A DNA stretch of 58,227 nt from Halobacteriales archaeon QS_9_67_17 (GTDB lineage Archaea > Halobacteriota > Halobacteria > Halobacteriales > Haloarculaceae), in the NCBI GenBank assembly GCA_003023185.1, contig PXSB01000054.1, forward strand, positions 1-58,227. The letters are read 5' to 3'. Positions 3,684-22,140 of the stretch are shown piece after piece. The notes under the pieces are model-generated. The model made no database searches, was not told where the DNA came from, and saw only the letters and a list, made by a program, of their open reading frames with translations. The position numbers and the translations under genes are program-made. How positions within the stretch are numbered: position 1 is the stretch's first letter; each line of letters begins with the position of its first letter.

Positions 3684-5408
3684 ATGCGACTGCTCGTCGT
3701 CGTGGGCGTCTGTGCACTGCTGGTGGCGTCGCCCGCGACAGCTACCACGACTGCGGCTCCTACGGGCGAGCCACCCCTCGCCGAGGCCGGCCTCGATCAG
3801 ACCGTCCAGCGGGGCGCGGGGGTCATCCTCGACGCTGGCGGGTCGCGGGACCCGGACGGCGAGATTACCGGCTACGACTGGCAGATCAAAGCACCCAATG
3901 GAACCACAGTTACCCCTGAGTGTTCAGACTGCGAGCAGACCCGGTTCACCGCGGATACCGTTGGCGAATACAACGTGACCGTCGAGGTGACCGACGACGA
4001 CGGCAACACGGCGAACGACACGCTCTACGTGACCGTCGAATCGCCGCCCGATGGCCCCACGGTCTCGCTGTCCGGCGACACGGCTCCGAGTGTCGACGCC
4101 CCCGCCAGATACGACGCGACAGCAACCGCTGGTGACGCGGAACTCAAAACGGTGGAATGGACTGTGGATGGTCAGAATGCCACCGAGCAGGACGTGGGCG
4201 AGGAGTCGGCTACAGAGTCGCTGATTCGCGCGTTCGACGACGCGTCACCGCGAACTGTCCGCGTGACCGTCACCGACGAGGCCGGTCGGACGGCCTCCGA
4301 TGCGCTCCGTATCGATCCGCGAGCGGAGCGTAATGATCGTGGAGCGCCTGAGGGACCACCGGAGTCGACACCGACGCTCGAGGAAATGGACACACCATAC
4401 GAGCCGTGTGCTGAGAATCAAGAACCCGACGTATCAGCGGATGCACGAGTATCAGTGGATATGCGGGCGAGTGGTGAGGTCGCTTACATCTCCTCTGAAC
4501 AGAGTGACCCAGATGGGTCTATCATAGATGTCAGGTACAAGCCGGGGTCCACCGTGCCTGTTCCAGAGGCCGGGAAGACCAAGACAGCCACTGTCACCGT
4601 GGAAGACAACTGCGGAGCAACGGCATCGGACGTGGTGCTCATCGGGCAGGAGACAGACGAGAAAACAATCCAGAAGACAAAGACTCAGGAGGTAGAAAAC
4701 GAGAACGTCATCGAGGTTCGGATTGATGGCTGGGCTGTTGTGGGCAGCAAGATCAGAAGCGGGAAATCAAGTGACCTGCCTGACACCGTATCTGGTCAGG
4801 TTGACCGGGCCCCAGAGATGCGAGCTGTCATTGGGTCAACGGAGTGGACCGTCATCAAAAATCACGTAGGTCACCGTGAGAATACCTCTAAGGACGGCAC
4901 TAGACTGTCTGGAGAGGATGCAACACAGACGGAGATCCAGTACGTCAACGAAACGGAGACAGTAAAGATAACAGAAACGGAACTCAAGACCGATGTCACA
5001 CCGTACGAGAAGAGCGGAAAGACAGTCACAAACGACCTGAACAACGACGGAAAGATCGACATCGTCGACTGGCGACAAAAGTACCCTAGCCACAACACTG
5101 TCGAAGAGACGAACAATGACCACGACGATGATGGTCATAACAGTGTAAAAAGTCTAGAAGAAAAGGACGAGAACAATGACGGCACGGCCGAGGTCTGCTC
5201 GAGGGGGTACTGTATGGACCTCGATACTGACCTAAACAATAACGGAGGAGCAAACAACGACAACGACGGAGGTGCGAACAACAACGGAGGGACGAATAAT
5301 AACAACAACGGAGGAACAGAAGACGATGAACTGAGCGAGCAAGCCACCAACTCCCAGATGAGCGATGAGACGAAAGACGCCTTCGTCAAGTACGCTCGCG
5401 AGAACTGA
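3684..5408 (+). CDS. Secreted PKD-domain surface protein
   Basis: A 574-residue protein starting with a Sec-type signal peptide (MRLLVVVGVCALLVASPATA). Residues about 30-115 are a PKD-like beta-sandwich (AGLDQTVQRGAGVILDAGGS, DPDGEITGYDW, TVTVEVTDDDGNTAND region). A second weaker PKD-like module runs to about residue 210, and a third around 250-320 contains DPDGSI. The last 130 residues are Asn/Asp/Gly-rich with low-complexity NNNGG runs. No transmembrane anchor or sorting motif is visible at the C-terminus. The second half is more AT-rich than its neighbours. The stop codon lies in a perfect hairpin, and the frame remains open after it, so the annotated C-terminus may be truncated. The function is unknown; an extracellular binding or adhesion role is inferred. 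Confidence 0.75.
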   Translation: MRLLVVVGVCALLVASPATATTTAAPTGEPPLAEAGLDQTVQRGAGVILDAGGSRDPDGEITGYDWQIKAPNGTTVTPECSDCEQTRFTADTVGEYNVTVEVTDDDGNTANDTLYVTVESPPDGPTVSLSGDTAPSVDAPARYDATATAGDAELKTVEWTVDGQNATEQDVGEESATESLIRAFDDASPRTVRVTVTDEAGRTASDALRIDPRAERNDRGAPEGPPESTPTLEEMDTPYEPCAENQEPDVSADARVSVDMRASGEVAYISSEQSDPDGSIIDVRYKPGSTVPVPEAGKTKTATVTVEDNCGATASDVVLIGQETDEKTIQKTKTQEVENENVIEVRIDGWAVVGSKIRSGKSSDLPDTVSGQVDRAPEMRAVIGSTEWTVIKNHVGHRENTSKDGTRLSGEDATQTEIQYVNETETVKITETELKTDVTPYEKSGKTVTNDLNNDGKIDIVDWRQKYPSHNTVEETNNDHDDDGHNSVKSLEEKDENNDGTAEVCSRGYCMDLDTDLNNNGGANNDNDGGANNNGGTNNNNNGGTEDDELSEQATNSQMSDETKDAFVKYAREN

Positions 5409-11674: not shown

Positions 11675-14245
11675 TCAGTTCGACGTGCTGTCGTCTGAAT
11701 CGAGGTAGTTCGGGACGCCGTCCCCGTCCGCGTCATCGGTGCCCTCGGTCTCGTCGGACGTGCCATCTCCGTCAGAATCGAGATCCCGATAGTTGGGGAG
11801 GCCGTCGCCGTCGACGTCCTCAGTTCCTTCGACACTATCGGCGATGCCGTCGTTGTCGCTGTCGGTGTCGAGGTAGTCGGCGGGACTGTCCCCGTCGGTG
11901 TCGGTCGTTCCCTCCGTGCTGTCCGTGATCCCGTCACCGTCGGAATCAGTGTCGAGGTAATTCGGAACGTCGTCGCCGTCGGCATCGTTCGTTCCCTCAG
12001 TGGAATCGAGGACACCGTCACCGTCCGAGTCGGCATCGAGATAGTTCGGAGCGCCATCGCCGTCAACGTCGCCGGTCCCTTCGGCACCGTCGAGGAGTTC
12101 GTCTTCGTCGCTATCCGTGTCGAGGTAATTCGGAGTGCTATCGTCGTCGGAGTCGTTGGTCCCCTCGACGCTATCGGCGATGCCGTCACCGTCGGAATCA
12201 GTGTCGAGGTAGTTCTTGATCCCGTCGCTGTCGGCGTCGTTCGTCCCTTCGGTGGCGTCGGGGATGCCGTCACCGTCGTTATCGGTGTCGAGATAGTTCG
12301 GAGCACCGTCGCCGTCGGCATCGTCGGTGCCCTCGGCGCTGTCGGGGATGCCGTCGCCGTCGGCATCGAAGTCCCGGTAGTTGGCGACGCCGTCGCCGTC
12401 AGCATCGTTGGTCCCTTCGATGGCGTCCGAGATGCCGTCGTTGTCGCTGTCAGTCTGGAGGTAGTCGGCGGGACTGTCGCCGTCGGTGTCGGTCGTTCCT
12501 TCCGTGCTGTCAGGAATGCTGTCGCCGTCCGAATCAGTATCTATGAAGTTCGGAGTGCCGTCTTCATCAACGTCGTTGGTCTTCTCGGTGGAGTCGAGGA
12601 TACCATCATCGTCCGAATCGGCATCGAGATAGTTCGGAGCTTCGTCGCCGTCGACATCGTCGGTCCCTTCGACGCTGTCGAGGAGGCCGTCTTCATCACT
12701 GTCGGTGTCGAGGTAATTCGGGGTGCTATCGCCGTCGGTATCATCGGTGCCCTCTGTGCTGTCCGTGATCCCGTCACCATCGGAATCCGTGTCGAGATAG
12801 TTCGGAACCCCGTCGTCGGCATCGTTGGTTCCTTCGGTGGCGTCCGGGATGCCGTCGCCGTCGTTATCGGTGTCGAGATAGTTCGGAACGTCGTCATCGT
12901 CGGCGTCATCGGTCCCTTCGGTGCTGTCCGTGATCCCGTCACCGGCGGAGTCGGCGTCCTGATAGTTGGGGACGCCGTCACCGTCCGCGTCCTCGGTACT
13001 CTCGGTGGCGTCGGGGATGCCATCGTTGTCGCTGTCAGTCTGGAGGTAGTCCGCGGGACTGTCGCCGTCGGTGTCGGTCGTCCCCTCCGTGCTGTCGGGG
13101 ATGCCGTCGCCGTCGGCGTCAGTGTCGAGATAATTCGGAACGCCGTCGCTGTCGGCGTCGTTCGTCCCCTCGGCGGAATCGAGGATACCGTCACCGTCCG
13201 AATCAGCATCTAAAAAGTCGGGGGTTCCGTCCGCGTCGGCGTCGGCATCACCCTCGGTACTGTCGGGGATGGCGTCTTCGTCGCTATCGGCGTCGAGATA
13301 GTTCGGCGTGCTGTCGCCGTCGGCGTCGTCGGTGCCCTCGACGGCGTCGGCGATTCCGTCACCGTCGTTGTCGGTGTCGAGGTAGTTGGGAACGTTGTCG
13401 CCGTCGGCGTCGTTCGTTCCCTCGGTGGAATCGAAGGTGCCGTCGCCGTCTGAGTCGACGTCGCGGTAGTCAGCTGTGCCGTCACCGTCAGCGTCGGTAG
13501 CTCCCTCGGTCGAGTCGCTGATGCCGTCGTCGTCGCTGTCGTCGTCGAGGGCGTCGATGGTCTCGTCACCGTCAGTGTCCACCGCGGAGCCGCCGTCGGT
13601 CTCGACGCCATCGTCGATACCGTCACCGTCCGTGTCGGCGGAGTCGATATCGGTCCCGAGGCTCTCTTCGAGGGAGTCGTCCAGCCCGTCGCCGTCGGTG
13701 TCGTTCGAGTCGTCGCCGTCACCGATGGAGTACGTCGTCGTCGTCGGGTTGTCCGTGCTCTGGACGTTGACGGCGACGTCGACGTCGTAGGTGCCGGAGC
13801 TCTGCGGGTTCTCCGCGGCGTCGTAGACGACGTGCACTACGTCACCTTCCGAGAGGGAGTAGCTGCCGCCGAAACCTATCGCCAGCGTCTCGCCGTTGTT
13901 CGAGCCAGACACGGAGTCGAGGTCGTCCGAGACATCGACGACGGAGCCGTCCGACCGTTCGATCTCGGCCGTGACCACGTCGGACTGGTCGACGTTACTG
14001 ACGGTGCCGTCGAAGTTACCGTCGACGCTGTAGTCGACTTCAACGCTGTTCAGCGAGTTGGAATCGTCGTTCGATTCGACTACCGCCCTGATGTCGTGTG
14101 TCGCTGTCGCACCCGGATCGGCCGGCGAGACTTCGACCGATGCATCGGCCGACGCGACAGCGTTGCCCGCGAGAGCTACACCGCCGACAGCGGAAGCGAT
14201 CAGTATCGTTACCAGGAACACCGCACGGCTTTGTTTTACCATCAT
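11675..14245 (-). CDS. Secreted calcium-binding-type protein with 22 thrombospondin-3-like repeats
   Basis: An 856-residue protein. Residues 1-33 are a Sec signal peptide (hydrophobic LVTILIASAVGGVALAG). Residues about 34-180 are a head domain (SPADPGATATH, FGGSYSLSEGDVVHVVY, VQSTDNPTTTTYSIGD) shared with two nearby proteins. A short Asp-rich linker precedes 22 units of 28 residues (DGDGIPDSTEGTNDADGDGV type). Each unit carries DxDxDG-like motifs of calcium-binding thrombospondin type 3 repeats. There is no C-terminal membrane helix or PGF-type sorting signal; it ends DDSTSN. The start is just downstream of an AT-rich promoter. The role is unknown; a rigid, extended, ion-binding surface or matrix protein is inferred. 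Confidence 0.85.
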   Translation of the reverse strand: MMVKQSRAVFLVTILIASAVGGVALAGNAVASADASVEVSPADPGATATHDIRAVVESNDDSNSLNSVEVDYSVDGNFDGTVSNVDQSDVVTAEIERSDGSVVDVSDDLDSVSGSNNGETLAIGFGGSYSLSEGDVVHVVYDAAENPQSSGTYDVDVAVNVQSTDNPTTTTYSIGDGDDSNDTDGDGLDDSLEESLGTDIDSADTDGDGIDDGVETDGGSAVDTDGDETIDALDDDSDDDGISDSTEGATDADGDGTADYRDVDSDGDGTFDSTEGTNDADGDNVPNYLDTDNDGDGIADAVEGTDDADGDSTPNYLDADSDEDAIPDSTEGDADADADGTPDFLDADSDGDGILDSAEGTNDADSDGVPNYLDTDADGDGIPDSTEGTTDTDGDSPADYLQTDSDNDGIPDATESTEDADGDGVPNYQDADSAGDGITDSTEGTDDADDDDVPNYLDTDNDGDGIPDATEGTNDADDGVPNYLDTDSDGDGITDSTEGTDDTDGDSTPNYLDTDSDEDGLLDSVEGTDDVDGDEAPNYLDADSDDDGILDSTEKTNDVDEDGTPNFIDTDSDGDSIPDSTEGTTDTDGDSPADYLQTDSDNDGISDAIEGTNDADGDGVANYRDFDADGDGIPDSAEGTDDADGDGAPNYLDTDNDGDGIPDATEGTNDADSDGIKNYLDTDSDGDGIADSVEGTNDSDDDSTPNYLDTDSDEDELLDGAEGTGDVDGDGAPNYLDADSDGDGVLDSTEGTNDADGDDVPNYLDTDSDGDGITDSTEGTTDTDGDSPADYLDTDSDNDGIADSVEGTEDVDGDGLPNYRDLDSDGDGTSDETEGTDDADGDGVPNYLDSDDSTSN
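11678..13534 (-). repeat. 22 tandem 84-bp coding repeats with a 7-unit higher-order period
   Basis: The repeats encode 28 residues each; unit 9 is one codon shorter. Comparing unit n with n+7 gives clear matches. Units 6, 13 and 20 share TTDTDGDSPADYL. Units 4, 11 and 18 start DED. Units 7, 14 and 21 start DNDGI and have NYQ/NYR. Units 3, 10 and 17 share DSTPNYLD. The array therefore grew by copying blocks of seven units (about 588 bp), three blocks plus one unit. Confidence 0.85.
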
Positions 14246-14673
14246 GGGATAAAAATTTATTATCGCTATTATAATTTATGTCTGGCATGCAATTTAATAT
14301 TTTTGAACATTCAGACCCAGCTGACAGAGAATCTCCGTCGGCGACGTCAGCAGAGCGATAATGGTTTTTCTCCGGATCCCACTACTCCGCGTGGGCCGAT
14401 GATGAGTCCGTCCGACCGAGTCAGCCTCGGCAGCTGGCGATGACGACCCCTATGAGTACTGTCATAGGCCCACGTACCGCGATTCACCCATCTTCGGCGG
14501 CAACCCGAAGTCACGTTTGGTGTCGTCCGGTCGTTCCCGTCTTGCCGTCGTTCACGAAAGCTACCAGCGGTGAGCGGAGCGAACCGGAACTTAGCGAGAG
14601 ATATTTCCAAAAATATTACCCCGAAACCATTTTCGTTGACCTTCGGAATCTTCACTCGGAGCACCGAAATACG
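14246..14673. promoter_or_regulatory. Divergent promoter region between two paralogous secreted-protein genes
   Basis: 428 bp separate the starts of the two divergent paralogues. On the minus strand the TATA-like AAATTATAATAG lies about 25-30 bp before the 14245 ATG. An additional AT-rich stretch (14280-14320) and AAAAATATTAC near 14608 may serve the plus-strand gene at 14674, which would then have a leader of roughly 40 nt. The middle (14330-14590) holds no convincing gene. Confidence 0.5.
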
Positions 14674-15699
14674 ATGTATCCAACGAACCCCCCAATGCGT
14701 GCAGCGGTCCTCGCAACGATAATGGTCGTTTCGGCCATCGCAAGCGGCGCAGTCTTGGCAGGCTCTGCAGCTGCGACGGCGAACTCTACCATCAAGGTAT
14801 CGCCGGCCGAGCCCGACGCGACCGCGACACACACCGTGCGCGGCACTGTGGAATCGGACGACGACTCGACGGCGTTGAACGGCATCGAGATCCAGTACAG
14901 CGTCGAGGGCGACTTCGACGGGTCGGTTAGCAACGTCGGCCGGTCGGAGGTGACGGCAGTCGAAATCAATCGGAACGACGGCACCACGGTCGACGCGCTC
15001 GATGACCTCCAGAGCGTGAGCACGACCGACGACGGCGACACCCTCAGGTTCGACTTCGGCGGGAGTTACAATCTGCAGGAGGGCGACGTCGTCGCGGTGA
15101 CCTACTCGTCCGTCCAGAACCCGTCGGACTCCGACACCTACTCCGTCGCCATCGCGATCAACCCCGACAGCGCAGACGACCCAGCGTCGACCACCTACAC
15201 GCTCAGCGACTCGGATTCGGATTCGGACTCCAACAGTGATGATCCTGATTCGGACAACGACTCGGATAGTGACTCTGACGATGATTCCGATTCAGATTCG
15301 GACTCAGATGACTCAGACTCCGCCGATTCGGACAGCGATTCCGATTCCGACTCGGACGACGATTCCAATTCGGATTCCGACGACTCCGATTCTGACTCCG
15401 ATAGCGATGATTCAGATTCCGACTCAGATTCGGATGATGACTCAGACTCCGAGGACGATTCTGACTCTGACAGCGATTCGGACTCAGATGACGACGATTC
15501 CGATTCTAACTCGGACTCCGACGATGACTCGGCCGACTCTGATAGCGACTCGGATTCAGATTCCGATGACGACTCAGACTCTGACAGCGACGATGACTCG
15601 GATACCGACGATTCCGATTCAGACGACGACTCGGATTCGGATGACGACTCAGATTCCGACAGCGATTCCGATGGCGACTCCGACTCCGATTCGGATTAG
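14674..15699 (+). CDS. Secreted Ser-Asp (SD) repeat protein
   Basis: A 341-residue protein. ATG 14674 was chosen because the signal peptide (MRAAVLATIMVVSAIASGAV) follows directly; the track start at 14440 adds a non-protein-like tail. Residues about 35-175 are the same head domain as in the neighbours (SPAEPDATATHTVRGTVES, DFDGSVSNVGRSEV, FGGSYNLQEGDVVAVTYSS). The last ~165 residues are almost pure Asp/Ser. There is no sorting motif. Comparable SD tails act as stalks in staphylococcal Sdr and clumping factors, where they are also glycosylated; that comparison is analogy only. Confidence 0.82.
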   Translation: MYPTNPPMRAAVLATIMVVSAIASGAVLAGSAAATANSTIKVSPAEPDATATHTVRGTVESDDDSTALNGIEIQYSVEGDFDGSVSNVGRSEVTAVEINRNDGTTVDALDDLQSVSTTDDGDTLRFDFGGSYNLQEGDVVAVTYSSVQNPSDSDTYSVAIAINPDSADDPASTTYTLSDSDSDSDSNSDDPDSDNDSDSDSDDDSDSDSDSDDSDSADSDSDSDSDSDDDSNSDSDDSDSDSDSDDSDSDSDSDDDSDSEDDSDSDSDSDSDDDDSDSNSDSDDDSADSDSDSDSDSDDDSDSDSDDDSDTDDSDSDDDSDSDDDSDSDSDSDGDSDSDSD

Positions 15700-15851
15700 C
15701 CGAGCCGATACCGACATTTTTCTGACGAACACCACCACCGAGATAGCCACAGTTCCCGAGTCCGTTGGCACGAAGCGAGGCCTCTCGGTTCACGTCAGAA
15801 GCACCGTGCATCCGCTAATCCGAAAGGAGGCCTATACGGCTCGGCGTCGAC

Positions 15852-17540
15852 TCACTCCGCCTCGGGTTCCCCTTCGACGGAGGCGTCAGACTTGGGCTTG
15901 TCGTCGGGTCCGTCCTCGAACATCGCGTCGAACACCTTCCGCTCGGCGGTGCGGAGGTGTTGCGTGAACGTCGAGGGGGTAATCTCGAAGCTGTCCGCCA
16001 GATCCTGCGCGCTGCTCTCGCGGGGCCACCCGAAGTAGCCGCCGGAGTAGGCCGCCTCCAGCGCGTTCCGCTGTTTCTCCGTCAGCCGTTCTTCGACCGC
16101 AGACCGGCCGGCCGAGACGCCAGCGTCCGTCTGCTGGACCTTGCGTTGCGCGATGACCGAGACGTTGGACGCGTGGTCCTGTACGCGTTCAATGAGCCGT
16201 CGCTTGTCGCGTCCCGGTGGAAACTCGACGACGAACCGGAATCGGCCGTCGATGATCGAAGCGGAGGTGACGTGGCCGCCGTGGGTCGCGGCCGCCTCGG
16301 CGAGTTCACTGATCGCCGGACTGGTGAGTTCGAACTCGACCGTCTGGTCCTCGGCAGAGAGGATGCGAACGTCGTCGGTGCCGTCGGCTCGTTCGGTGGC
16401 GTCACGGAACGTCTCGGAGTCGATGCCCGCGCTCTCTCCGTAGGCGACGAGCGAACCGTCGTTCCGGATGAGACTCTCGAACTCGACGGCCGGCGTCTGG
16501 TTGGTCGGGAGCGCGATCAGGTCGTCGACGATGTCGTCGATGCCGAAGGTGAGTTCGAGCACCTGATCGCTCACCAGCGCGTCCTTGCGTTCGAGCGCCG
16601 CGAACGCGTGGCCGATGACGTCGCCCAGCCGGGAGAGGATCTCAATTTCCGGTGTCGAGAAGGCGTTCGGCGACGCGGCGTAGATGTTCAACACGCGGTA
16701 GAGGTGGTCCTCGTACGCGACCGGCACCGCCGCGGAGGAGTGGTAGTCGCGCTCGATTGCTTCCTCGCGCCACGGCTCGAACGTCAAGTCGGACTGTACG
16801 TCCTGCATCACCTGCACCTCGTGGGTCCGGACCGCACGGCCGGCCGGCCCCTGTCCGGTGTCCTCGCCGCCGACGGTCACCTCTATCTCGTCGAGATAGC
16901 CGTCTTCGACGCCGGCCGCAAGCTTGGGCGCGATGCGACCACTGCTGTGATCGACGGCGCCGATCCAAGCGAACCGGTACGCGTCGGTGTCGGCGACTCG
17001 TTCACACACGGCGCGTTCGAGTTCCTGCTGTGTCGACGTCGTGATGACAGCGTGCGTGATCTCTTGGGTGATTCTGTTGAGGTTGTTGAGCGCCCGGAGC
17101 TGTTCGAGCTGTCGGACGCGCTCGCGCTCCTGTTGGTTCCGGTCGATGGCGTGGTGGATCGAGCGCACCAGCAGTTCGCTGGACACCTCGCCTTTCACCA
17201 GATAATCCTGTGCGCCGCGCTGGACCGCTTCGGTGCCGACCGACTCGTCGCGCAGTCCCGTGAGGACGACGATGGGGACGTACTCCGTCGCGTCGACCAC
17301 CGTTTCGAGCGTGTCGATGCCCGTGCTCTCCGGCAATCCGAGGTCGAGAAGGATCACGTCGATGTCCCCCTCGTCCAAGCGGTCGAGGCCGTCCGAGAGT
17401 CGCGACGCGTGGTGTAGCCGTTGCTCGTCGGTCGCGACCCGCTCCAGCAACCCTTCCGTCTGTCCGAGCATCTCCTCGATCAGCCGTGCGTCGCCGGGAT
17501 TGTCCTCGATCAGGAGGATGTCGAGCGCGTCGGCACTCAT
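15852..17540 (-). CDS. Response regulator with receiver, GAF and Bat/HTH-10 domains
   Basis: A 562-residue protein. Residues 1-125 are a receiver domain with phospho-acceptor Asp in VILLDLGLPES and the conserved Lys in YLVKGE. Residues about 150-320 are a GAF sensor domain (ELERAVCERVADTDAYRFAW, GPAGRAVRTHEVQ). Residues about 325-480 are the bacterio-opsin-activator region. The C-terminus has HTH-10 (LTEKQRNALEAAYSGGYFGW). It is a cytoplasmic DNA-binding regulator. It overlaps the upstream receiver-only gene by 4 bp (ATGA), so the two are translationally coupled and probably belong to one phosphorelay. No histidine kinase is adjacent. Confidence 0.9.
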   Translation of the reverse strand: MSADALDILLIEDNPGDARLIEEMLGQTEGLLERVATDEQRLHHASRLSDGLDRLDEGDIDVILLDLGLPESTGIDTLETVVDATEYVPIVVLTGLRDESVGTEAVQRGAQDYLVKGEVSSELLVRSIHHAIDRNQQERERVRQLEQLRALNNLNRITQEITHAVITTSTQQELERAVCERVADTDAYRFAWIGAVDHSSGRIAPKLAAGVEDGYLDEIEVTVGGEDTGQGPAGRAVRTHEVQVMQDVQSDLTFEPWREEAIERDYHSSAAVPVAYEDHLYRVLNIYAASPNAFSTPEIEILSRLGDVIGHAFAALERKDALVSDQVLELTFGIDDIVDDLIALPTNQTPAVEFESLIRNDGSLVAYGESAGIDSETFRDATERADGTDDVRILSAEDQTVEFELTSPAISELAEAAATHGGHVTSASIIDGRFRFVVEFPPGRDKRRLIERVQDHASNVSVIAQRKVQQTDAGVSAGRSAVEERLTEKQRNALEAAYSGGYFGWPRESSAQDLADSFEITPSTFTQHLRTAERKVFDAMFEDGPDDKPKSDASVEGEPEAE

Positions 17541-17998
17541 CGCTTCACCTCCTCCGGCGGGAGCCGGACCGCGTCGAGCCAGAACGACTCGAATCGCCTG
17601 ACCGCCTCGATGAACTCGTCGGGGTCGACCGGCTTCGTCAGATACGCGTTGGCGTCGAGTTCGTACGACCGCACTACGTCCTCCTCGGCGCGCGAACTCG
17701 TCAGCACGACGACCGGGAGATACTGGAACTGGTCGTCGTTTCGTATCCGTTCGAGCACCTCGTCGCCGTTCGTCCGCGGGAGATTGAGATCGAGGAGCAT
17801 CACGTCCGGGCGCGATTTGTCGGCGTGGTCGCCGCGCTGATAGAGGAAGTTCAGCGCCTCGTCGCCGTCGGTGACGACGTGGAGCGTGCTGGTGAGGCGG
17901 CTGTTCTTGAACGCCTCCTTCGTGAGCCGAACGTCGCCGGGATTGTCCTCGACGAGCAGAATGTCGGCGGACTCACCGGCGGTAGGTGCGTCACTCAT
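17537..17998 (-). CDS. Single-domain response regulator (Rcp1-like receiver)
   Basis: A 153-residue receiver-only protein. The start MSDAPTAGESADILLVEDNPG at 17998 was chosen; the track ORF reaching 18571 is an artefact. Phospho-acceptor Asp lies in DVMLLDLNLPRTNG, the conserved Thr/Ser in VVVLTSSRAEED, and the Lys in YLTKPVDPDE. The length and NFLYQRGDHA segment resemble Rcp1-type receivers that serve phytochrome-like kinases. It probably passes phosphate within a relay together with the coupled downstream regulator. Confidence 0.92.
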   Translation of the reverse strand: MSDAPTAGESADILLVEDNPGDVRLTKEAFKNSRLTSTLHVVTDGDEALNFLYQRGDHADKSRPDVMLLDLNLPRTNGDEVLERIRNDDQFQYLPVVVLTSSRAEEDVVRSYELDANAYLTKPVDPDEFIEAVRRFESFWLDAVRLPPEEVKR

Positions 17999-18083
17999 CA
18001 GTCTCACCCACCGCCGGTAGCGTGAAGCCACCGACCGTCGAGCCGGTGATCTGCGGATACGCAGACAGGTCGAGCGACGCCTT

Positions 18084-18410
18084 TCACAGCCAGTGGCCGC
18101 CGGCGAGAATGATGATGCCGGACGCACCGAGGAGGAGAAGCTGGACGACGGCTTCTCGGGCTGGAGCGCCGTTCTGTAGGATGAGCGCAGTCCAGCCAAC
18201 CGCGAACAGCACGCATATGCCGCCAAGCAGTCCGGCAGCGCGGACTGCCGAGACGGCACGTCGCCAAGGGAGCCATACAGCCGAAACGCTCCATCTGAAA
18301 TTATAACTTGGGGGTGCGAGTTTCTCCGCGACGCATCGCCGTCCGTCATCGGCGGTACCGACGCGCCGTGACTCTCCGTCTGTCCAATCAGGCGAGCGCC
18401 ACACCCCCAC
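18084..18410 (-). CDS. Small two-helix membrane protein, start uncertain
   Basis: The last ~65 codons encode two plausible membrane helices (AAGLLGGICVLFAVGWTALI and EAVVQLLLLGASGIIILAGG). The first 40 codons of the ORF look random, and a TATA-like AAGTTATAATTT at about 18298-18309 lies inside them. The only ATGs just after that box (18294, 18276) are in another frame. Either the gene is decayed by a small frameshift near its 5' end or it uses an unusual start. Function unknown. Confidence 0.35.
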   Translation of the reverse strand: MGVWRSPDWTDGESRRVGTADDGRRCVAEKLAPPSYNFRWSVSAVWLPWRRAVSAVRAAGLLGGICVLFAVGWTALILQNGAPAREAVVQLLLLGASGIIILAGGHWL

Positions 18411-18443
18411 CCACTTTTAACCGACCGTTTCCAATTTTGGACA

Positions 18444-19646
18444 ATGACCGAGCGTCCGATACCGAAAGGCGTGAGCCTCGACACGCTACGGGACATCGTC
18501 GCTGGCTGGGCGGCCGTCGGGGCGGCCGACGAGCCACAGTACACCTCCGACGTGGCGGAGGCGACGGGCATCTCGGATGCCGTCGGCCGACAGACCCGAT
18601 TCCTCGAAGCAGTCGACGTTCTCGAATCCGAGGGCCAGCATCACGTGCTCACCGAGGCGGGCGCTCCGCTCGCGCAGGCACTTGACTCGGGAGCGACGGA
18701 CGAGGCGCGGGAACACGCCACCGACCTGCTCGGGGACTGGACAGTCACCGACGAGCTGTACGGACTCCTCCGCAGAAACCAGGTCGAACGGGAGCAGCTC
18801 GAACGCCATCTCGCTGCGATAACCGACCACGACCACACGAACAGCCGCGTGTCGTCGGGTGTCGGGACGCTGCTGGACCTGTACGAGTGGGCGGGCCTGC
18901 TCGACCGCGACGACGAGGACCGATGTCGTATCCCCGAAGCGAGGAGGGAAACCAAAGACGAGGTGGCCGAACTCCGCCGCGAACTCGACGCGATGCGGGC
19001 CGACCTCTCTGACGAGATAGCCGCGGTGCGAGACGAGACACGGGAGACGAGCGAGCAGGTCCAGCGCGCGCTCGAACGGTCCGTCGCGGCCGCCAACGAG
19101 GACATCGACGCGACGGTGGACGAGGCCGCCAGAGGACTCGTCCGAGCAATCGTGGCCGCCGAGTCCGGGGTCGAGCAGGCACTCGAAAGCCGCCCGACCG
19201 ACGGCTCCCCGGAGGAGCAAGCCGGTGAGGGTGCAGACACGGAGGCCGAGGCGCTAACCGCGGAACCTGAGTCGAGCGACGCGGTCGGAGATGTCGACAC
19301 GGACGGCGGGTCGAGTCTCGACCTCCTGTCGGGCGAGACGGACGCCGTCACCGTCGACCGCGACACCGACACGGTCAGGATCGAAGCCGACGGCTCGACG
19401 TTCGAACTTTCTCCGTCCGGCGTCGAGATAATCGACGCGGGAGAAGCCGACGGTGGTGAATCGGACGAGGGTAGCGACGCACCAGCCGAGGCGGCCGCCG
19501 GTCGCCCGTCGACGAGTCGCGCCGGCGAGGACGCAATCGCGCTCTCGCTCGATCTCGCGCTCGACACCGACACCGACGACGTGGAGGACCTCGTCAGAGG
19601 ACTCCGACGGGCGCTGGTCGACGAGATGCTCAGCGAAGAGGACTGA
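18444..19646 (+). CDS. Winged-helix protein with coiled coil and acidic C-terminal region
   Basis: A 400-residue protein. Residues 1-150 look like paired helix-turn-helix/winged-helix modules (YTSDVAEATGISDAVGRQTR, then SSGVGTLLDLYEWAGLLDRD), reminiscent of DUF5343-like proteins. Residues about 170-250 form a coiled coil (EVAELRRELDAMRADLSDEI...). An acidic low-complexity stretch and a small ordered segment (VTVDRDTDTVRIEADGSTFE) precede an amphipathic C-terminal helix. There is no membrane segment. A TATA-like CTTTTAACC lies about 28 bp upstream. It may be a chromatin- or partition-like DNA-binding protein. I do not recognise the family with confidence. Confidence 0.65.
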   Translation: MTERPIPKGVSLDTLRDIVAGWAAVGAADEPQYTSDVAEATGISDAVGRQTRFLEAVDVLESEGQHHVLTEAGAPLAQALDSGATDEAREHATDLLGDWTVTDELYGLLRRNQVEREQLERHLAAITDHDHTNSRVSSGVGTLLDLYEWAGLLDRDDEDRCRIPEARRETKDEVAELRRELDAMRADLSDEIAAVRDETRETSEQVQRALERSVAAANEDIDATVDEAARGLVRAIVAAESGVEQALESRPTDGSPEEQAGEGADTEAEALTAEPESSDAVGDVDTDGGSSLDLLSGETDAVTVDRDTDTVRIEADGSTFELSPSGVEIIDAGEADGGESDEGSDAPAEAAAGRPSTSRAGEDAIALSLDLALDTDTDDVEDLVRGLRRALVDEMLSEED

Positions 19647-19681
19647 CGCAAGAGGAAAGCGGTTATCGGGGTCAGCGCACT

Positions 19682-20710
19682 TCAGTCCGATGTCGAGTCG
19701 TCGGAGTCCGGCTGGTCCGGAGCGTCCGGCTCGTCAGGTGCGTCCGGTTCGTCGGGCGCGTCCGTGTCGTCGGAGTCTGAATCCGAATCCGAGTCCGAGT
19801 CGCTGTCTGAATCCGAGTTCACGTCGCTGGTAGAGGCCGTGCTACCGTCGGAATCGTCATCTGAGTCCGAGTCGTCGCCGTCGGAGTCACCGTCGTCGGA
19901 ATCGGAATCATCGTCTGAGTCTGAATCTCGGTCGTTCTCGTCGGAGTCGTCAGAGTCGTCATCATCGTCGTTCGATTCGTCCGAATCTCTGTCGTCGCCG
20001 TCGGATGAGTCCTCGTCGCCATCGTCGGACTCATCGGAATCGTCGTCACCCTCGTCGCCATCCTCTGAGTCGTCATCGCCGTTCTCGCCTTCGTCAGGAT
20101 CGTCGCCTGGGTCGTCGTCCGAATCGTCATCGTCGGAATCGTCGTCCGAGTCGTCCTCATCAGAGTCGTCCTCGTCGTCGCCGATGACGTACGTCGCGGA
20201 CATCGGATCGTCCGTGCTCTGGACGTTGATAGCGATTTCGACCTCGTGTTCGCCGGTAGTCGTCGGATTCTCGGCGGAACCGTAGCTGACCCGCAGGACG
20301 TCACCCTGATGCAGGGTGTAACTGCCGCCGAAGGCTATATTCAGGGTTTCGCCGTTGTTCGTCTCGGTGACGCTGCTGAGGTCGTCGGAGACGTCGACCG
20401 TGGTCCCGTTCGAGCGAACGATCTCCGCGGTGAGGACGTCCGACTGGTCGACGTTGCTGACCGTCCCGTCGAAGTCACCCTCGACGCTGTAGTCGATTCG
20501 GATGCTGTTCAGCGAATCCGTGTCGTCTGCGGCCTCGATGGTGCCGGTTGCCGTGTGGACTGCCGTCGCGCCCGGCGCCGAGGGATCGGCGCTGATAGAC
20601 GCCTCCGTCGCCGCGCCGGCCGTCCCGACGAAGGCGACTCCACCGACGGCCGCCAGCAACATCAGTGCCGACAGTACGGTCGCGTTGAGTGCGGTGTTTC
20701 GATGTGCCAT
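19682..20710 (-). CDS. Secreted protein with shared head domain and mixed acidic repeat tail
   Basis: A 342-residue protein. It starts with a signal peptide (LSALMLLAAVGGVAFVGTAG), followed by the same head domain as in the two paralogues at 11.7 and 14.7 kb (SAPGATAVHTATGTIEAADD, DFDGTVSNVDQSDVLTAEIV, FGGSYTLHQGDVLRVSYGSA). The tail of ~165 residues is Asp/Glu/Ser-rich, includes a pure SD run, then three DAPDEP/DAPDQP units, and ends SDDSTSD, similar to DDSTSN of the large paralogue. No sorting signal. A TATA-like TATATTTATTA lies about 45 bp upstream on the minus strand. Confidence 0.82.
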   Translation of the reverse strand: MAHRNTALNATVLSALMLLAAVGGVAFVGTAGAATEASISADPSAPGATAVHTATGTIEAADDTDSLNSIRIDYSVEGDFDGTVSNVDQSDVLTAEIVRSNGTTVDVSDDLSSVTETNNGETLNIAFGGSYTLHQGDVLRVSYGSAENPTTTGEHEVEIAINVQSTDDPMSATYVIGDDEDDSDEDDSDDDSDDDDSDDDPGDDPDEGENGDDDSEDGDEGDDDSDESDDGDEDSSDGDDRDSDESNDDDDDSDDSDENDRDSDSDDDSDSDDGDSDGDDSDSDDDSDGSTASTSDVNSDSDSDSDSDSDSDSDDTDAPDEPDAPDEPDAPDQPDSDDSTSD

Positions 20711-21436: not shown

Positions 21437-22000
21437 TCAGTGGCCGGCGATGACCACACCCAGATCCTCGTGTGAGAGGTCGTCGACCGTGTCCACGAGG
21501 TCCGTGTTGAGGTCGTCGTACTCGCGTCGTAGCTCCTCGTACGCTTCCGAAGACTCCAGTTCGGCGTCGGTCATGTACTTCTCCAGCAGCGCGATCTTCC
21601 GCGCGACGACGAACTGTCGGTTCACGCGGGTGCCGAACTCTGCCCGCTGGACCAGCCGAGCGACGAGGGCACGGAGTGTCTCGGCGTCGACCGGCTTACA
21701 CAGGTACTCGTCGAAGCCGAGATCCACCACGTCGTCTGTCGGCTCGACGGCGGTGACCATCGCGATGCGCACGTCCGTCTCTGAGCTACGCATCCCGGCG
21801 AGGACGTCGTCGCCCGGCGCGTCGGGCATGCGCCGGTCGAGGAGAACGACGTCGATTGAGTCGTCGAACACGTCGAGTGCCTCCGTCGCGTTACGAGCAG
21901 TCACCACCCGATGGGCTTCAGAGAGCCATCTCCCGTACAGTTCTCTGAGCCGCTCATTGTCCTCGACGACGAGCACGGTCGGCTTGTCAGCAGAGTTCAT
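21437..22000 (-). CDS. Response regulator with HalX C-terminal domain
   Basis: A 187-residue protein. Start chosen at MNSADKPTVLVVEDNERLRE (22000); further in-frame ATGs upstream at 22018 and 22033 are possible. The receiver domain covers residues 1-115, with Asp in VVLLDRRMPDAPG and Lys in YLCKPVDAE. The C-terminal ~70 residues (EFGTRVNRQFVVARKIALLE) match the HalX domain, a haloarchaeal helical module of unknown output. It stands alone next to cspA. Confidence 0.9.
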   Translation of the reverse strand: MNSADKPTVLVVEDNERLRELYGRWLSEAHRVVTARNATEALDVFDDSIDVVLLDRRMPDAPGDDVLAGMRSSETDVRIAMVTAVEPTDDVVDLGFDEYLCKPVDAETLRALVARLVQRAEFGTRVNRQFVVARKIALLEKYMTDAELESSEAYEELRREYDDLNTDLVDTVDDLSHEDLGVVIAGH

Positions 22001-22140
22001 CCCACTCCATCTCCCCATGTGATTTCCCCACACATTGGACTATATCGAACGGGTGGAGATCATATAAACCATCTACCGTGTTTTCGCCCGCTGAAAACGG
22101 TGGACGGACGACGTATTAGGCTCGCGCTCGTGGGCCCGAT

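Follow-up and report, generated by a model that had tools for sequence, protein, structure and literature searches.

Three anchorless haloarchaeal proteins pair an S-layer-type head domain with different acidic tails

The 58,227-nucleotide stretch of DNA analyzed here (the window) is part of contig PXSB01000054.1 (C54) of Halobacteriales archaeon QS_9_67_17, an incomplete haloarchaeal genome of 2.0 Mb in 102 contigs (67.5% complete). It encodes three related proteins, A, B and C, that have a signal peptide and an N-terminal head domain in common, carry three different acidic tails and lack any visible anchor. By whole-domain homology, the head belongs to the same family as the N-terminal domains of S-layer glycoproteins. 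We give about even odds to the reading that all three are exoproteins derived from an S-layer domain, lacking an anchor, bearing polyanionic tails that can be exchanged, and staying at or near the S-layer by non-covalent contacts. They are a local variant of the widespread haloarchaeal S-layer/PGF-CTERM surface modules and not a new kind of system; their unusual feature is anchor loss combined with tail exchange. The three proteins are laid out as follows:

11675-14245, minus strand: protein A, whole (open frame)
13721..14245, minus strand: signal peptide and head of A, residues 1-175; 60% identical to head C, hidden Markov model (HMM) E-value 1.7e-45
11675..13720, minus strand: tail of A, about 22 thrombospondin-3-like units of 28 amino acids with 31 strict Ca-loop motifs, ending DSDDSTSN (Tandem Repeats Finder; Pfam TSP_3, E 2.5e-12; motif count)
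14674-15699, plus strand: protein B, whole, from the ATG at 14674 within a longer mechanical open reading frame (ORF)
14674..15207, plus strand: signal peptide and head of B, residues 1-178 (head alignment, HMM)
15208..15699, plus strand: tail of B, a Ser-Asp repeat of 163 amino acids (NCBIfam matches to MSCRAMMs in the SD repeat only)
19682-20710, minus strand: protein C, whole (open frame)
20183..20710, minus strand: signal peptide and head of C, residues 1-176 (AlphaFold2 mean predicted local distance difference test (pLDDT) 93.4; ortholog 93-94% identical)
19682..20182, minus strand: tail of C, D/E/S-rich with DAPDEP units, ending DSDDSTSD (composition; ortholog tail shorter)

The original prediction described three ORFs with one signal peptide and head in common, and the alignments bear this out. 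The common part comprises the signal peptide and about 140 residues that are 53-60% identical (A-C 60%, A-B 54%, B-C 53%) and align without large gaps; with head A as query, C is recovered at E = 5e-52 and B at 9e-46, far beyond chance. The motifs ATA[TV]H, DFDG[TS]VSNV, FGGSY.L..GDV and TY.[IL] recur in the heads, A having NFDG in the second. The absence of a visible anchor likewise stands. Neither PGF-CTERM nor a C-terminal membrane segment nor a lipobox is present in A, B or C; the proteins contain no cysteine at all, hence no lipobox Cys follows the signal peptide, and the C-termini are Asp-rich, that of B ending DSDSDSD before the stop. A missed or frameshifted PGF-CTERM was considered and rejected, since none of the three frames downstream of A, B or C contains a PGF motif or a relic of one.

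The three tails are as different as had been predicted. That of A (681 amino acids, net charge -245) is built of 28-residue units, seen in the DNA as an 84/168/252-bp periodicity, and passes the Pfam TSP_3 model (PF02412) in 11 stretches at 46.7 bits, the curated cut-off being 25 bits. It is like the thrombospondin type 3 proteins in its unit length and its DxDxDGxx[DN]xx[DE] loops but has no cysteines and no thrombospondin C-terminal domain, and is fused instead to an S-layer-type head; among about 100 head-bearing frames read for architecture, only A joins the head to TSP3 repeats. The tail of B is 94% Ser plus Asp (55% D, 39% S; charge -91). Its codons are mixed, with all six Ser codons in use and GAC and GAT 45 times each, and the repeat has therefore been maintained as protein and is not a fresh DNA microsatellite. 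The tail of C (166 amino acids) is 51% D, 21% S and 7% E, with DAPDEPDAPDEPDAPDQP. As predicted, two of the three proteins end in DDSTS plus N or D: the last seven residues of A and C, DSDDSTS, are identical, which has a probability of about 1e-5 given the tail composition, and this indicates that the middle of the tail was exchanged. The tails are probably ion-binding.

Several lines of evidence place the head in one family with the N-terminal domains of S-layer glycoproteins. One head profile gives HMM E-values below 1e-43 for A, B and C and 1.6e-34 for the S-layer-type protein L014, and hhalign aligns the head family with the S-layer N-terminal domain at a probability of 99.9 (L014 is one row of the alignment A1, so this comparison is not independent). 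Protein A alone as query matches an S-layer glycoprotein N-terminal domain at 49% identity (E 1.4e-24). In head trees, A, B, C and the ortholog of C form one clade, with a Shimodaira-Hasegawa-like approximate likelihood ratio test (SH-aLRT) support of 99 in a first tree of 125 heads and 96 in a second tree, of 106 rows, built with a mixture model. One node deeper, this clade is joined to eight S-layer-type N-terminal domains with a support of 84 in both trees, and the approximately unbiased test does not reject the core-set grouping with S-layer domains (p 0.74).

Like the ArtA-dependent S-layer glycoproteins (NF041335-type, with the TIGR04207 signal), A, B and C combine a signal peptide with an N-terminal head of this family, and the head of an S-layer-type protein from the same genome is about 40% identical to that of C. 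They differ in having the head only, with acidic tails in place of the body domains and PGF-CTERM. The full body (NF041335, halo_surf_dom and PGF-CTERM) is found in L014, L043, L048 and L143 and not in A, B or C. All S-layer-type rows scanned carry halo_sig_pep, and all but one also have the NF041335-type body and PGF_CTERM; the exception is L120, in which only the signal is seen. In Haloferax, the S-layer protein csg consists of a string of Ig-like domains, the first of which (D1) surrounds a six-fold pore lined by cation-bound acidic residues, and its assembly into the S-layer is Ca-dependent (PMC8640222).

AlphaFold2 confidently models the 147-residue head of C as a ten-strand beta-sandwich, and the best Foldseek matches among solved structures are TTHA1873 (template modeling (TM) score 0.59/0.56), MSCRAMM N2-N3 domains, AgI/II C-terminal domains, the collagen-binding ACE/CNA, cohesins and CBM3. 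Sequence identities of 8-17% and root-mean-square deviations above 4 Å mean that these are kin in fold class only. No significant homolog was found in the PDB by sequence (best E 0.043 with a single head; none with the profile or with full-length A). In Pfam, PF10989 (DUF2808), a family whose function is itself unassigned in its name, matches A at 16.4 bits and B at 14.4 bits, under the curated cut-off of 25.3, and does not match C, so the relation is remote. Two paralogs in the same genome pass that cut-off (L012, 53.2 bits; L013, 30.9 bits), and 16 of 25 heads give a weak match in the same register over about 100 positions. Within the collection of papers searched, none names TTHA1873, QH_7_66_36 (see below) or TSP3 repeats in haloarchaea.

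The head is not confined to this locus. Elsewhere in the same genome it occurs as five tandem copies in a 1096-aa protein with a PGF-type segment at its end (contig C85), as two copies flanking a Thr/Pro stalk with a hydrophobic C-terminal end (C31), once, N-terminally, in an S-layer-type glycoprotein (C26) and once within a lipoprotein of the twin-arginine translocation (Tat) type (C47); it is thus a domain family and not a single-locus hallmark. A ten-row profile detects it in 146 of the 394 Halobacteria genomes sampled and in 44 of their 86 genera, and in a phylum-wide sample all matches with E below 1e-8 fall within the same order. In the commonest architecture, a signal peptide is followed by between one and five heads, a linker rich in Thr/Asp and PGF-CTERM; other partners are Tat lipoproteins, Pilin_N, DUF7282, PKD arrays, pentapeptide repeats, poly-Asp and the S-layer body. 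A membrane or PGF-type anchor ends 53 of 101 head-bearing ORFs, a rough and probably low figure, since the regular expression used for C-terminal hydrophobic segments misclassifies some proteins (L012 and L050, for example, were scored unanchored). Family f7 offers a second case of anchorless heads with acidic tails (L134 and L135, from two genomes), there with Tat signals.

These surveys support the earlier picture of a modular exported set, in which the head is conserved and the acidic tails, some with Ca motifs, can be exchanged; relatives of the head bear many other tails. The earlier interpretation survives in part: the anchorless acidic-tail set stands, but its head is not private, being widespread, remotely related to DUF2808 and nearest to S-layer N-terminal domains. 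The original prediction was to be given up if the head proved to belong to a characterised family with a known anchor, and this turned out to be half the case: most relatives are anchored, but A, B, C and the ortholog are not, and theirs is a family known by name, not by function.

Some head-bearing and repeat proteins deserve mention in their own right. Pilin_N was confirmed ahead of the head in L122, L131 and L144, and a pilin-type N-terminus with head was read by eye in L125, L128, L130, L132, L139, L140 and L146, which suggests that pilin-like proteins have the head in common with the S-layer. L134 (1765-2769) and L135 (1747-2775) are Tat-exported heads with acidic stretches on both sides and a tail of about 63% D/E. 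On a plasmid of Natrinema sp. SYSU A 869, L150 (2932-3918) joins a head to a tail of pentapeptide repeats and shows no anchor, a further example of an exchangeable tail. L120 (1125-5135) is a 1337-aa surface glycoprotein with a head and a dockerin-type-like C-terminus (IQDVLSVIDEYNNGNATIQDILAVIDAYNADN). Genome G019 encodes a giant repeat protein related to the TSP3 tail of A, and L107 (2834-9688), a 2285-residue frame with TSP3-like repeats, has a C-terminal region that by eye resembles a contact-dependent/polymorphic toxin module. A plasmid-borne origin of the system was rejected, the Natrinema plasmid holding the single such relative, as was a viral origin: IMG/VR contigs held no relative at pattern-based sensitivity, and BFVD gave generic sandwich matches only.

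The history of the locus can be read against the nearest genome compared, the metagenome-assembled Halobacteriales archaeon QH_7_66_36 (G005; 96% complete), which has an ortholog of C on PXQV01000014 (G005:C9). DNA identity to the window is 91% left of A, 95% over 15900-17670 (a response-regulator gene) and 89-92% on either side of C. A and B are absent both from this locus and from the rest of that genome; they have been gained or lost. Between head C and its ortholog, non-synonymous divergence (dN) is 0.038 and synonymous divergence (dS) 0.124 (dN/dS ~0.30), values that place head C under purifying selection. The C tail runs to 166 residues in the window and to about 68 in QH_7_66_36, with DAPDEP units and the DSDDSTS[ND] end common to both. 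Judged from these comparisons, the head and the C-terminal tip are maintained and the middle of the tail expands, contracts or is replaced. Heads A and C differ by more (dN 0.31, dS 0.83) than C and its ortholog, so the duplications predate the species split, and loss of A and B in QH_7_66_36 or transfer into the lineage of the window is therefore likelier than recent duplication. One further feature stands between A and B:

14246..14673, unstranded: divergent A-B intergenic region, AT-rich toward A, containing a 121-bp segment at 14352-14472 (comparison with QH_7_66_36)

This segment is kept at 88% in QH_7_66_36 despite the missing A and B and contains the inverted repeat CCTATGAGTACTGTCATAGG. 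A structured RNA (z = 0.38 and -0.94, not significant) and a repeat element (the segment is single-copy in six genomes searched) were both rejected as explanations.

Around B and C lie three response-regulator genes:

15852-17540: response regulator between B and C
about 17537-18040: response regulator between B and C
21437-22033: third response regulator, beyond C

Between the regulators and C, at 18444-19646, a 400-aa acidic protein is encoded that has no Pfam match and is 89% conserved in QH_7_66_36. At 3684-5408 the window encodes a secreted protein with a PKD domain, a motif resembling an EF hand (DLNNDGKIDIVDW) and repeats rich in Asn and Gly (5235-5314); it too has no visible anchor.

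Taken together, we propose that A, B and C would be exported via Sec and that their beta-sandwich heads would descend from the same stock as haloarchaeal S-layer glycoprotein N-terminal domains, the polyanionic tail standing where relatives usually have a PGF-CTERM-type C-terminus. As the conserved part that makes the contacts, the head would most likely retain each protein on the S-layer or close to it; alternatively, its partners may be other copies of the same domain on S-layer, PGF-CTERM or lipoprotein-type proteins of the same cells. Because the head family forms the first domain of an S-layer-type protein in the genus of the window, we favor non-covalent contact through the head. The tail would act as a variable hydrated ion-binding polyelectrolyte, through Ca/Mg loops in A, Ser-Asp in B and D/E/S in C, and the three proteins together may form an ion-rich, probably Ca-tuned coat or matrix round the cell. 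A more specific form, which we regard as unlikely, would make them accessory S-layer decorators, free copies of the S-layer first domain that would attach non-covalently to the lattice or insert into it (around the six-fold pore, for example) and display interchangeable cation-binding tails. Several points weigh against the proposal of S-layer-held exoproteins. The support of 84 for the S-layer grouping is not above 95; the structural matches are at the level of fold, with TM scores of 0.43-0.59 for most; and csg is missing from the 50 best Foldseek matches, so that any equivalence of the head to D1 is positional only. The AlphaFold2 model of the A repeats is of low confidence (pLDDT 50) and was not used, so predicted Ca binding derives from motif and family only, and acidic composition is widespread among proteins of halophiles. 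Export, non-covalent surface retention, cation binding and a coat or matrix role are what we infer from the sequences.

The same proteins could be freely diffusing polyanions of a matrix or public-good kind, with heads not bound to the S-layer, released as buffers for divalent cations or water, or to contact salt minerals. The lack of an anchor of any kind, charges of -91 to -245 and the similar acidic-tailed heads of L134 and L135 are all consistent with this, but a head that is under purifying selection and nearest to S-layer domains points to a specific partner, and we hold the idea to be possible but doubtful. It is rather improbable that they are adhesins like the staphylococcal Clf-Sdr MSCRAMMs (microbial surface components recognizing adhesive matrix molecules), with an Ig-type head that binds a ligand and is borne on a stalk stiffened by ions. 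The Ig-type beta-sandwich head, the Foldseek matches to SdrG, ClfA, SdrD, SdrC, Bbp, ACE/CNA and AgI/II, and the match of the B tail to the SD repeat of SdrC/SdrD/ClfB point that way; however, head sequence homology was not detected, TM scores are only about 0.5, there is one 147-residue sandwich and not an N2-N3 tandem, and the SD repeat of B is not followed by LPXTG. With its end free of both LPXTG and PGF-CTERM, the stalk is unable to keep the head at a distance from the cell as MSCRAMM stalks do.

If instead the three were decaying copies of PGF-CTERM-anchored proteins, their C-termini lost to repeat expansion and the tail without selected function, the drift in tail length and the absence of A and B from the closest genome would follow; the long frames are nevertheless intact, the dN/dS of the head is low, the C-terminal motif is conserved in A, C and the ortholog, and the downstream frames hold no anchor relic, which makes decay very unlikely. 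The original prediction also suggested control by the interleaved response regulators, which in its strongest form would be a two-component-regulated surface switch turning the three tails on and off. One of the two regulators between B and C has a BAT/HTH_10 DNA-binding end, and response-regulator genes adjoin C in the sole other genome that has C. This suggestion nonetheless found no support: QH_7_66_36 keeps the same regulators without A and B, and a shared promoter motif was rejected, the best alignments of the regions upstream of A, B and C staying within the range of shuffled controls. We consider such a switch highly improbable.

About one in three of the Halobacteria genomes sampled encodes this head, a surface module that haloarchaea reuse and that is for the most part unannotated; S-layer proteins, lipoproteins, pilin-like proteins and exoproteins with or without an anchor all carry it. 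Were A, B and C to dock into the lattice as decorators, a cell could retune the charge and permeability of its coat without changing the S-layer gene. As a natural experiment the three proteins are clean: the head is constant, the anchor absent and only stalk chemistry varies. They make it possible to test whether proteins without a tether can be kept at the archaeal surface by domains derived from the S-layer, and also which role Asp-rich tails play at saturating salt.

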